A stretch of 64,000 bases of DNA from Eunapius fragilis (taxonomy: Eukaryota; Porifera; Demospongiae; Spongillida; Spongillidae): the NCBI GenBank assembly GCA_963681505.1, contig OY811981.1:8370464-8434463 (forward strand). The letters are read 5' to 3'. The notes beneath the pieces are model-generated. The model had not been told where the DNA came from. It worked only from the letters and a program-made list of their open reading frames with translations, and made no database searches. The translations under genes were made by a program, and so were the position numbers. Below, piece by piece: positions 4,101 to 10,100 of the stretch (positions are counted from its first letter, which is position 1; every line of letters starts with the position of its first letter).

Positions 4101-7100
4101 TGTCAAGAGGGAGGGACTTCTCCTCAGAAATGCAGAATCTACAAAGATCAGAGAGCTGCACAAGTAGAGATAAAGATCACACAGTTTCTAAAACAACCCG
4201 ACCTTGTGCCCCCATAACCAGCCTACCTTGGACCCTATAACCAGCCTACCTTGGACCCTATAACCAGCCTACCTTGGTCCTTATAACCAGCCTACCTTGG
4301 ACCCTATAACCAGCCTACCTTGGACCCTATAACCAGCCTACCTTGGACCCTATAACCAGCCTACCTTGGACCCTATAACCAGCCTACCCTGGACCCTATA
4401 ACCAGCCTACCTTGGACCCTATAACCAGCCTACCTTGGACCCTATAACCAGCCTACCTTGGACCCTATAACCAGCCTACCTTGAACCTTATAACCAGCCT
4501 ACATTGGACCTAATAACCAGCCTACCCTGGACCTTATAACCAGCCTACCTTGGACCCTATAACCAGCCTACCTTGGACCCTATAACCAGTCTACATTAGA
4601 CCCCATAACCAGCCTACCTTGGACCTTATAACCAGCCTACCTTGGACCCTATAACCAGCCTACCTTGGACCCTATAACCAGCCTACCTTGGACCCTATAA
4701 CCAGCCTACCTTGGACCCTATAACCAGCCTACCTTGGACCCTATAACCAGCCTACCCTGGACCCTATAACCAGCCTACCTTGGACCCTATAACCAGCCTA
4801 CCTTGGACCCTATAACCAGCCTACCTTGGACCCTATAACCAGCCTACCTTGAACCTTATAACCAGCCTACATTGGACCTAATAACCAGCCTACCCTGGAC
4901 CTTATAACCAGCCTACCTTGGACCCTATAACCAGCCTACCTTGGACCCTATAACCAGTCTACATTAGACCCCATAACCAGCCTACCTTGGACCTTATAAC
5001 CAGCCTACCTTGGACCCTATAACCAGCCTACCTTGGACCCTATAACCAGCCTACCTTGGACCCTATAACCAGCCTACCTTGGACCCTATAACCAGCCTAC
5101 ATTAGACCCCATAACCAGCCTACCTTGGACCTTATAACCAGCCTACCTTGGACCCTATAACCAGCCTACCTTGGACCCTATAACCAGCCTACCTTGGACC
5201 CTATAACCAGCCTACCTTGGACCCTATAACCAGCCTACATTAGACCCCATAACCAGCCTACCTTGGACCTTATAACCAGCCTACCTTGGACCCTATAACC
5301 AGCCTACCTTGGACCCTATAACCAGCCTACCTTGGACCCTATAACCAGCCTACCTTGGACCCTATAACCAGCCTACATTAGACCCCATAACCAGCCTACC
5401 TTGGACCTTATAACCAGCCTACCTTGGACCCTATAACCAGCCTACCTTGGACCCTATAACCAGCCTACCTTGGACCCTATAACCAGCCTACCTTGGACCT
5501 TATAACCAGCCTACCTTGGACCCTATAACCAGCCTACCTTGGACCTTATAACCAGCCTACCTTGGACCCTATAACCAGCCTACCTTGGACCCTATAGCCA
5601 GCCTACCTTGAACCCTATAACCAGCCTACCTTGGACCCTATAACCAGCCTACCTTGAACCCTATAACCAGCCTACCTTGGACCTTATAACCAGCCTACCT
5701 TGGACCCTATAACCAGCCTACCTTGGACCTTATAACCAGCCTACCTTGGACCCTATAACCAGCCTACCTTGGACCCTATAACCAGCCTACCTTGGACCCT
5801 ATAACCAGCCTACCCTGGACCCTATAACCAGCCTACCTTGGACCCTATAACCAGCCTACCTTGAACCCTATAACCAGCCTACCTTGGACCTTATAACCAG
5901 CCTACATTAGACCCCATAACCAGCCTACCTTGGACCCTATAACCAGCCTACCTTGGACCCTATAACCAGCCTACCTTGGACCCTATAACCAGCCTACCTT
6001 GGACCCTATAACCAGCCTACATTAGACCCCATAACCAGCCTACATTGGACCCTATAACCAGCCTACCTTGGACCCTATAACCAGCCTACCTTGGACCCCA
6101 TAACCAGTCTACCTTGGACCCTATAACCAGCCTACCTTGGACCCTATAACCAGCCTACCTTGGACCCTATAACCAGCCTACCTTGTGCCCCCATAACCAG
6201 CCTACCTTGGACCCTATAACCAGCCTACCTTGGACCCTATAACCAGCCTACCTTGGACCCTATAACCAGCCTACCTTGGACCCTATAACCAGCCTACATT
6301 AGACCCCATAACCAGCCTACATTGGACCCTATAACCAGCCTACCTTGGACCCTATAACCAGCCTACCTTGGACCCCATAACCAGTCTACCTTGGACCCTA
6401 TAACCAGCCTACCTTGGACCCTATAACCAGCCTACCTTGGACCCTATAACCAGCCTACCTTGGACCCTATAACCAGCCTACCTTGGACCCCATAACCAGT
6501 CTACCTTGGACCCTATAACCAGCCTACCTTGGACCCTATAACCAGCCTACCTTGGACCCTATAACCAGCCTACCTTGAACCCTATAACCAGCCTACCTTG
6601 GACCCAATAACCAGCCTACCTTGGACCCTATAACCAGCCTACCTTGGACCCTATAACCAGCCTACCTTGGACCCTATAACCAGCCTACCTTGGACCCTAT
6701 AACCAGCCTACCTTGAACCCTATAACCAGCCTACCTTGGACCCTATAACCAGCCTACCTTGGACCCTATAACCAGCCTACCTTGGACCCTATAACCAGCC
6801 TACTTTGAACCTTATAACCAGCCTACATTGGACCCTATAACCAGCCTACCCTGGACCCTATAACCAGCCTACCTTGGACCCTATAACCAGCCTACCTTGG
6901 ACCCTATAACCAGCCTACCTTGGACCCTATAACCAGCCTACCTTGGACCCTATAACCAGCCTACCTTGGACCCTATAACCAGCCTACCTTGGACCCTATA
7001 GCCAGCCTACCTTGCATGGACCCTATAACCAGCCTACCTTGGACCCTATAACCAGCCTACCTTGGACCCTATAACCAGCCTACCTTGGACCCTATAACCA

Positions 7101-10100
7101 GCCTACCTTGGACCCTATAACCAGCCTACCTAGGACCCTATAACCAGCCTACCTTGGTCCCTATAACCAGCCTACCTTGAACCCTATAACCAGCCTACCT
7201 TGGACCCTATAACCAGCCTACCTAGGACCCTATAGGTCCCTATAACCAGCCTACCTTGGACCCTATAACCAGCCTACCTTGGACCCTATAACCAGCCTAC
7301 CTTGGACCCTATAACCAGCCTACCTTGGACCCTATAACCAGCCTACCTTGGACCCTATAACCAGCCTACCTTGGACCCTATAGCCAGCCTACCTTGAACC
7401 CTATAACCAGCCTACCTTGAACCCTATAACCAGCTTACCTTGGACCCTATAACCAGCCTACCTTGGACCCTATAACCAGCCTACCTTGGACCCTATAACC
7501 AGCCTACCTTGGACCCTATAACCAGCCTACCCTGGACCTTATAACCAGCCTACCTTGGACCCTATAACCAGCCTACCTTGGACCCTATAACCAGCCTACC
7601 CTGGACCTTATAACCAGCCTACCTTGGACCCTATAACCAGCCTACCTTGGACCCTATAGCCAGCCTACCTTGAACCCTATAACCAGCCTACCTTGAACCC
7701 TATAACCAGCTTACCTTGGACCCTATAACCAGCCTACCTTGGACCCTATAACCAGCCTACCTTGGACCCTATAACCAGCCTACCTTGGTCCCTATAACCA
7801 GCCTACCTTGAACCCTATAACCAGCCTACCTTGGACCCCACAGCTTGTATAAATATGGAGAAGTAGTCCACACCAAACCTGGCATGAGAGATGGGTTACA
7901 AAGATGGCCACCAAAAGAACAGCCCCTCCAAGAGCCTCTCTTACTCTTTGAAGACAGCCACTATGTATTTCTGGACTGATGAACACGTGTCCAGACAGGC
8001 TTCTGCTAGTGCAGTCAGTACTGAAGCCTTTGAAGTATTGCCCTGCAGTGGATAGCACGTAAATGGGATAGCCCTAGAGTACTATCACCATGTGATTATG
8101 TATGTATGTATGTATGTATGTATGTATGTATGTATGTATGTATGTATGTATGTATGTATGTATGTATGTATGTATATATGTATGTATGTATGTATGTATG
8201 TATGTATGTATGTATGTATGCATGTATGTATGTATGTATGTATGTATGTGTGTGTATGTATGTATGTATGTATGTATGTATGCATGTATGTATGTATGTG
8301 TGTGTGTATGTATGTAAGTGTGTGTGTATGTATGTATGTGTGTGTGCACGTGTGTGTGTGTGTGTGTGCACGTGCGTGCGTATATGTATGTATGTATATA
8401 TGTATGTATGTATGTATGTATGTATGTATGTATGTATGTATGTATGTATGTATGTATGTATGTATGTATGTATGTATGTATGTATGTATGTGTGTGTGTG
8501 CGTGTGTGTGAGTGTATCTATACTTTCATTTTACCTTTGGAGGTTGTACTGATGCGCTTAGTTTAAGAAACCAGTCTTCTATCGAACCCTGCAAGAACAA
8601 GGGTGAGGAGAGAGAGGAGGGGGAGAAGGGAGGAGGAGAAGAGAGAGGGAAACATGTGTACTTATCACTGAGTACTACCCCTTTGACCCCCCCCCCCCCC
8701 CCCCTCAGTGTGGACCCACCCCCAGTGTGGACCCCTGGACACCAACCTTTACACAATCCTCCATTGTTCTACCACTCTGTTCAACAAATGGTGGAAAGGA
8801 GTACAATTTCTGAAGTGTCCTGCAGAAGCAGTCCAAAGAGACATGGCCACATAATAGTCATGGCCACATAATAGACATGCTGCGTCATATCTTACTGCAG
8901 GAGTGTTATCAGTTCCCCTTTCAAGTCAGCAATAGGATGCCCCGTCTGCTGCTGTTCCTTCAGCCCTGCCTCCCCTCGCCCCTTCTGATCATCACGGTTC
9001 ACCCTCAGGACATACAGATGCATACACAGTCTATCCTGGATGCATTTTACAAGCTCCAGAAGCTGATGATTTAGTTCAGGGACCCAGTTCGACCCTTTTT
9101 GGGGGCCCTGCAATGGTTGCCCTGGCGATGATGTTGACGATAGATTGCTCTCAATCCGTTCCACTAAGGACAAGAATGCATTCCAATCGACCAAGTACCA
9201 CTCATGATAGTCCATCAGGACACCAAGCTCCCTGTGTTGTGTGTGTGTGTGTGTGTGTGTGACATGGGATAATGTAACACACACCCTGTAATATCTCTTA
9301 TAACCAGCCCGTATGCGCTTCACACATAGTGCAGTCACAGACACATGATATTAAAATACATAGCAAGGAAAACCAGTTCATCTGGTTTGCGGCAGCCTCT
9401 AGCCAACCCCAGCACCCAGCTCCTGCGACCAACTTGTACACAATAGGGCCATCATATGCCCTTTACACACATCTCAATACACTACACACCCACACAGGCA
9501 GAGGACGTACATAGCAATACACTGCACACCCACACAGGCAGAAGACGTACATAGCAATACACTGCATGTCACTTATTCCGCTGGAAATGGCCTGGGTGAG
9601 GAGGAGTTGCCTGGCCTCCGGGCTGAGCTTGGCTGTCCACCTCTCCGCATGTTTCATCTCTGACTGTTCCTGTGTGTGAGTGGGGGGCTGGGGGAGAGGG
9701 AGGGAGGTTCTAACACACAACACCACCCCAGTGTGATGTGGCTTGGACATACAGTCATGCTTTCGTGGAACACTAACACTTTGAAGAGGTGTCCATAGTT
9801 CAGCATAGCCGAGAATACGTCTACAGTCTAGAGAGGCACCATATAAAAAGCATCTACACCCACACCCACACACACACTGCACACATATATACATAAATAC
9901 ACATACACAGACACACACATACATACATGTAGCAACATGCAGGTGATTCTTTTTTTTTTTAAAAGTTGCCCATGAAATTTTGATACCAAAATCAACTAAA
10001 AGTGTTAACTGCCCTCAAACAAAAAGTTGTTGCTAGAGAGAAGTCTGCACCAATTATTTACAATGCGTACGATTAAATGATCCTTCGGATGAAGATACAC

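Follow-up and report, generated by a model that had tools for sequence, protein, structure and literature searches.

Minisatellite-like repeats lying over an exon-intron boundary have been described in amphioxus under the name "mirages", in the genes for Adh3, globin, troponin C, and PGBD5 (PMC3087553, PMC3902484). These reports describe many units with AG/GT, an unstable array length, and RT-PCR (reverse transcription PCR) results that suggest regular splicing (PMC3087553, PMC3902484). Here, we describe an arrangement of this kind in the sponge Eunapius fragilis, in a stretch of 64,000 nucleotides (assembly GCA_963681505.1, contig OY811981.1, positions 8,370,464 to 8,434,463), which is called the window below and to which all plain coordinates refer. 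In one gene of the window, P1, an exon end and its 5′ splice site form the start of an array of 157 full copies of a 23-bp unit, each of which repeats the boundary, and shorter arrays of the same unit occupy the homologous donor in three tandem paralogs. We consider it likely that the array is a tolerated minisatellite of the mirage type, which was born by duplication of the boundary, was spread and homogenised by recombination, and is spliced mainly from its outermost donor.

Repeated splice sites are known from other settings as well. The human IFI6 (6-16) gene is said to carry a minisatellite that supplies multiple splice donors. Units further down that repeat are reported to be spliced, which produces alternative isoforms (PMC4526556). 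The tandem units of human UBC are coding and serve as donor and acceptor (PMC10809524), and the Rogers model proposes intron gain through tandem duplication of AGGT (cited in PMC3087553).

The part of P1 in question covers 1132-10806 on the minus strand and consists of C2/MUN-type exons. A 49-nt exon, here called exon X (7830-7878), precedes the array (4201-7838), and the next exon (4022-4155, encoding LSDLC...DPR) lies behind a phase-0 acceptor, tgtgcag. Array limits were taken from TRF (Tandem Repeats Finder), and the units were then aligned one by one, which gave 159 units, 157 full and two ragged; a preliminary description of this DNA had counted about 157 donors in a row. The first unit starts within exon X, as the final 9 nt of the exon, GGGTCCAAG, are part of the unit GGGTCCAAG|GTAGGCTGGTTATA, which is made up of these 9 nt of exon end and 14 nt of intron start and spans the exon-intron boundary. 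Ninety-six of the 157 full units match the consensus exactly. GT is found at +1/+2 in all 157 and AG|GT in 135, and the full donor motif CAAG|GTAGGC (CAAGGTAGGC) is carried by most units, but its share of 128/157 (82%) falls short of the "nearly every unit" first reported. Stretches of 19, 16, and 10 units are found again within the array, displaced by 16, 6, and 12 units, a pattern that block duplication would produce.

Four tandem paralogs of P1 are located on the plus strand between 24294 and 58025, namely, P0 (~24294-30914), P2 (~35066-39911), P3 (~43409-48900), and P4 (~53175-58025). At the homologous donor, the P1-type 23-mer is present in nine units in P2 (37180-37391, with the same donor), eight in P3 (45882-46087), and two to three in P4 (55095-55167), where the short array marks the 3′ limit of a long near-identity between P3 and P4. 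The corresponding exons X are FGVDYYSIFIQAVGSK in P2 (37140-37188), FGVDFFTIFIQIIGSK in P3 (45842-45890), and FGVDFFTIFIQIIGTK in P4 (55056-55104), the last with AAG|GTAAGC as its first donor. P0 has an exon X (26868-26916) with the donor GAG|GTGAGT and no 23-mer array. The composition of the unit as duplicated exon end plus intron start, proposed for P1, holds in P2 with the same overlap of 9 nt; in P3, 14 nt of exon X (TTATAGGGTCCAAG) are identical to the unit. The preliminary description had presented the P1 array as one of a kind, having overlooked the arrays of P2, P3, and P4, the mosaic nature of P4, and the donor-spanning arrays of unrelated genes, all of which are treated below; the same arrangement is seen in these paralogs, in the unrelated genes, and in the amphioxus mirages.

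The presence of the P1-type unit in four genes could be taken to indicate a dispersed mobile repeat, similar to an introner, which inserted at this and other exons. The four genes are, however, all tandem paralogs, and all 84 matches to an exact 37-bp dimer of the unit fall on the contig of the window (C11), within the P1-P4 cluster and a duplicate of P1 discussed below. With up to three mismatches, 188 matches were obtained, and the 100 listed are again all on C11, while the arrays at other genes are built of different units. Such an origin is extremely improbable, and the earlier suggestion of a selfish array, if a mobile one is meant, finds no support.

The Pfam MUN domain was found in four of four concatenated exon sets scanned (P1-P4, with P0 outside the scan; best E = 3.4e-12), and a profile search with the alignment of these four paralogs matched unc-13 homolog D (UNC13D; 9la9, E = 5.7e-21). 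When roughly joined exons of P1 were compared with Pfam and PDB, the MUN domain was missed; it emerged with the four-paralog alignment. In the one P1 concatenation scanned, a C2 domain (PF00168, E = 4.9e-5) follows the MUN region. By these profile matches, the host genes are assigned to the MUN-domain (UNC13/BAIAP3-type) vesicle-priming family.

In all five paralogs, exon X is 49 nt long, joins the next exon in phase 0, and codes for FGVD(Y/F)..IFIQ(A/I)(V/I).... When P1 exon X and the next exon are joined as AAG|CTC, the product is in frame and reads FGVDYFSIFIQAVGSK|LSDLC. Exon X of P0 ends in DKE|GTGAGT without any 23-mer, and because P0 thus has the same boundary in the absence of the array, the repeat does not account for the placement of this boundary; the exon end placed at 7830 by the preliminary description is supported by the matching exon and phase in the four paralogs. 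From this comparison, the intron after exon X probably predates the array.

Reading past the first donor gives GTA GGC TGG TTA TAG in P1, P2, and P3, i.e., the V-G-W-L-stop that had been read from P1, and V-S-W-L-stop in P4. Use of an inner donor adds an immediate in-frame TAG and hence a premature stop. The exons downstream of exon X that are recognised by homology are open in P1-P4, and since this is so in all four paralogs and inner donors insert a stop, the frame-keeping outermost donor appears to be used often enough.

Two arrays of other kinds were noted in these genes. An unrelated 25-bp array in P0 (26956-27212) begins 40 nt past the end of exon X, in the intron homologous to the one that houses the P1 array. 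In P1, the donor of exon 10627-10806 is directly followed by 2.3 copies of a 15-bp unit, GTGAGGGCTAATTAT (10592-10626, minus strand), which represent a second, tiny donor duplication.

Donor strength was scored with a matrix built on 44 donors within the window, chosen by eye from the sequence. The shared donor AAGGTAGGC scores 8.1, which is the 43rd percentile of this set. The score of the first array donor is matched or exceeded by 130 of the 157 and exceeded by two, and 155 reach the 10th percentile, so that most inner donors are about as strong as the first, in line with the equivalence claimed earlier. Donors that strong occur at 35.7 per kb in the array versus 1.07 per kb-strand elsewhere in the window, a density far from chance.

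The preliminary description had offered a U1 sink or a splicing-rate regulator as possible roles. In such a role, many U1 small nuclear ribonucleoproteins (snRNPs) on the nascent intron would slow or tune splicing or block early polyadenylation. The scores of the inner donors are in line with this, as are the GT, invariant throughout the array, and the 13 matches to U1 genes in the genome, of which six of six inspected begin with the donor-binding ACTTACCTG. The copy number, however, ranges from 2-3 to 157 among the array-bearing paralogs and is zero in P0, and tandem strong donors show no clear genome-wide excess over the reversed motif (three copies of AGGTRAGT, 657 versus 1026 reversed; three copies of AGGTAAGT, 69 versus 63 reversed), these match counts being dominated by a few large arrays. 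A function of this sort is very unlikely, and of the roles offered earlier, that of a tolerated array fits best.

The AG|GT in 135 of the 157 units also allows for a recursive (ratchet) or dual-specific ladder, in which the long intron would leave stepwise and recreate the donor each time. If the first donor were joined to an inner consensus AG, the sequence AAG|GTAGGC would be restored exactly, and the human UBC gene uses dual-specific AGGT sites in its tandem repeats (PMC10809524). The AG of the unit, on the other hand, has an acceptor score of -3.29, below all 22 acceptors curated in the window (lowest, 3.7), and the unit is without a clear pyrimidine tract, which makes a ladder highly improbable in P1.

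The number of units in P1 must be viewed in light of a second, inverted copy of the locus on the same contig (C11:5308500-5332500, 5.31-5.33 Mb), which repeats the window from 17206 to -6297. It includes a 7665-bp block with no mismatches and one gap, as well as 4200 bp beside the array with no mismatches, but a run of 5000 N replaces the exon side of the array, and 35 units are ordered differently. The 5000 N and the different 35 units imply that at least one of the copies is incomplete. Duplication during assembly, a second haplotype, or a recent duplication in the genome could each explain the second copy. The length comparison is 157 units versus 35 before the N run, with identical flanks, in a second copy that may be an assembly duplicate. 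The array could thus be an assembly artefact, either short in truth and inflated or a mixture of paralogous arrays. The window itself is free of N, however, three more paralogs have arrays of this unit at the corresponding donor, the anatomy recurs in unrelated genes, and the 157 units carry many variants whose order is mostly non-periodic apart from the recurring runs of 19, 16, and 10 units. An artefact is very unlikely: the existence of the array is secure, while the exact copy number in P1 is provisional.

Sequence likeness between the paralogs points to exchange around the arrays. P1 and P2 are 95.8% identical over 264 bp that begin 12 nt ahead of exon X and stop with the P2 array, and outside this segment share only short patches of at most about 85%. 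As this one long segment of likeness takes in exon X and the array, exon X seems to travel with the array. Starting at the 5′ exons, P3 and P4 share long blocks of 92-99% identity; these stop where the P4 array ends, and only short patches of 35 to 105 bp and at most 88% follow. At the protein level, P3 and P4 are identical at 67/69 positions in the two exons before the array versus 67/123 in the three after it (exon X left out), and the P4 exons after the array are closest to P1 (84/130 identical). P4, in which likeness to P3 stops at the array and gives way to likeness to P1, is thus a mosaic, and by these alignments, its break lies at or very near the array.

From the DNA, we infer an origin by boundary duplication, a mechanism of exchange, use of the outermost donor, and a lack of function. 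A short segment over the exon end and intron start would have been tandemly duplicated in one of P1-P4 or in an ancestor, giving two donors at first, after which unequal exchange, slippage, or conversion would have shifted the number of units and the arrays would have been homogenised among the paralogs. Because exon tail and donor travel together in every unit, the array would be tolerated: gain or loss of units, or a crossover in any register, would leave an intact exon end followed by a donor. The outermost donor is most likely the main one in use, and splicing from an inner one, which leads to V-G-W-L-stop, should feed decay. The outermost donor may win through its nearness to the acceptor of the 49-nt exon X, in the manner of exon definition, although this is a guess. 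RNA structure that would hide the inner donors gave no sign, as exon X with the first units is less stable than its shuffles (z = +3.2, 200 shuffles).

Some points weigh against a merely tolerated array spliced from its outer end. Where 5′ splice sites were duplicated in classical experiments, the intron-proximal one was often preferred, and on that basis mis-splicing would be expected in P1. Variable positions in the P1 unit are unevenly distributed, with 7/9 exonic versus 4/14 intronic (Fisher p = 0.036) and an invariant GT, possibly a trace of selection acting on the donor half of the unit; the test is limited by the non-independence of the units owing to block duplication, and the six-base donor core alone gives no signal (p = 0.64). 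Exchange between the paralogs also occurs where this array is missing, as P2 and P3 share 663 bp at 97% and P0 and P4 share 116 bp at 85%. The P2/P3 segment (39183-39845 and 48175-48837) covers C2-coding 3′ exons, whose neighbouring exons are far more diverged, and by this pattern, it is a conversion tract without the 23-bp array.

A bolder proposal is that the donor array acts as a frame-safe recombination joint between tandem paralogs. Every unit carries the end of a phase-0 exon together with the beginning of an intron, and a crossover in any register would therefore yield a spliceable, in-frame chimera. P4, with its P3-like 5′ half and P1-like exons after the array, would be the product of one crossover, and exon X moving with the array between P1 and P2 would be a second. 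As exchange occurs where no such array is present, the array need not cause it, and since the P4 break is one event and exchange is seen elsewhere without the array, we offer the joint as a tentative possibility and not as the main claim.

Donor-spanning arrays are not restricted to this gene family. Thirty loci were inspected, consisting of all 20 clusters among the first 100 AGGTRAGT-type places listed and the 10 new ones of 15 clusters obtained with a stricter motif. The first array donor ends a coding exon in sense at four of the 30 (L053, L069, L042, and L029), a proportion that does not represent a rate for minisatellites in general, as the loci were picked by a motif favouring real donors. 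L069 is a purple-acid-phosphatase-like gene with 10-11 units of ~28 bp, each made up of an exon tail coding for GHYP and a donor; its joined exons read ...GGHYP|VWSIAEHGPT... and match solved purple acid phosphatases (best E = 7.9e-20). At L053, ~8 units of 19 bp come after a GEN1-like exon (5t9j, E = 8.3e-12) whose end reads ...NLRE. The exon on the far side of the intron, CASLLDALG...GEAEA, we take by eye, from its GEAEA motif, to belong to the GEN1-like protein. At L042 and L029, the reading frame is open on either side of the intron, and the upstream exon has no Pfam match. L031 and L045/L046 (identical copies) are doubtful as exon-ending arrays. Of the other 23 loci, four (L062-L065) adjoin an opposite-strand coding frame and are ambiguous, and in the remaining 19, we recognised no exon whose end coincides with the first donor. 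No unit is common to any two of L053, L069, L042, and L029. The genome is rich in minisatellites, some of which arise across exon ends, and the unrelated arrays in GEN1-like and phosphatase-like genes indicate that this happens repeatedly in one genome.

Further repeats were observed at these loci. In the GEN1-like intron (L053 and L057), the 19-bp donor array is followed by ~42 copies of a 25-bp unit with CTTCACAG|GTGTGG, which resembles the acceptor side of the intron. L062-L065 (C7:9315500-9380000) are four places with one 39-bp array beside an opposite-strand coding frame of the VAIQWHPE type, presumably glutamine-amidotransferase-like. Read in the sense of the neighbouring gene, the unit either has 13 open codons or supplies a GTAAGG donor. 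The array may be a repeat within the coding sequence or a further boundary array common to the four places. At L013 (C1:11356578), ~18 units of 21 bp with TTCAG|GTAAGTATG, ending in TATTCTTTCAG, each hold an acceptor-like and a donor-like motif. The acceptor score of 4.1 is just inside the curated range, and no upstream coding exon was recognised at this locus. A recursive ladder is more plausible here than at the P1 array.

P1, in which more than 100 donors are nearly equal and all but the outermost disrupt the protein, represents a natural test of how the spliceosome chooses a 5′ splice site, and the series of 0, 2-3, 8, 9, and 157 copies provides an internal range of copy numbers within one gene cluster. 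The mosaic P4 suggests that boundary arrays may serve as joints for exon shuffling.

Compared with IFI6, P1 likewise has tandem units with a donor each at an exon end, but the downstream units of IFI6 yield isoforms, whereas the inner donors of P1, by their sequence, yield an immediate stop. AGGT sites are repeated in a tandem array in both UBC and P1, and the two differ in that the AG of the P1 unit is, by score, a very poor acceptor. An AG|GT segment has been duplicated as in the Rogers model, but in P1, an existing intron was extended, with its 3′ splice site outside the unit, and P0 has the intron without the array. The amphioxus mirages are the closest relatives, as the P1 unit spans the exon-intron boundary and AG/GT is present in 135/157 units. 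What sets the sponge locus apart is the length of 157 units, the presence of arrays in four tandem paralogs, and the mosaic break at one of them. The arrangement has thus already been named in amphioxus, and P1 adds a new and very long example, accompanied by a series of copy numbers and by a sign that exons have been exchanged.

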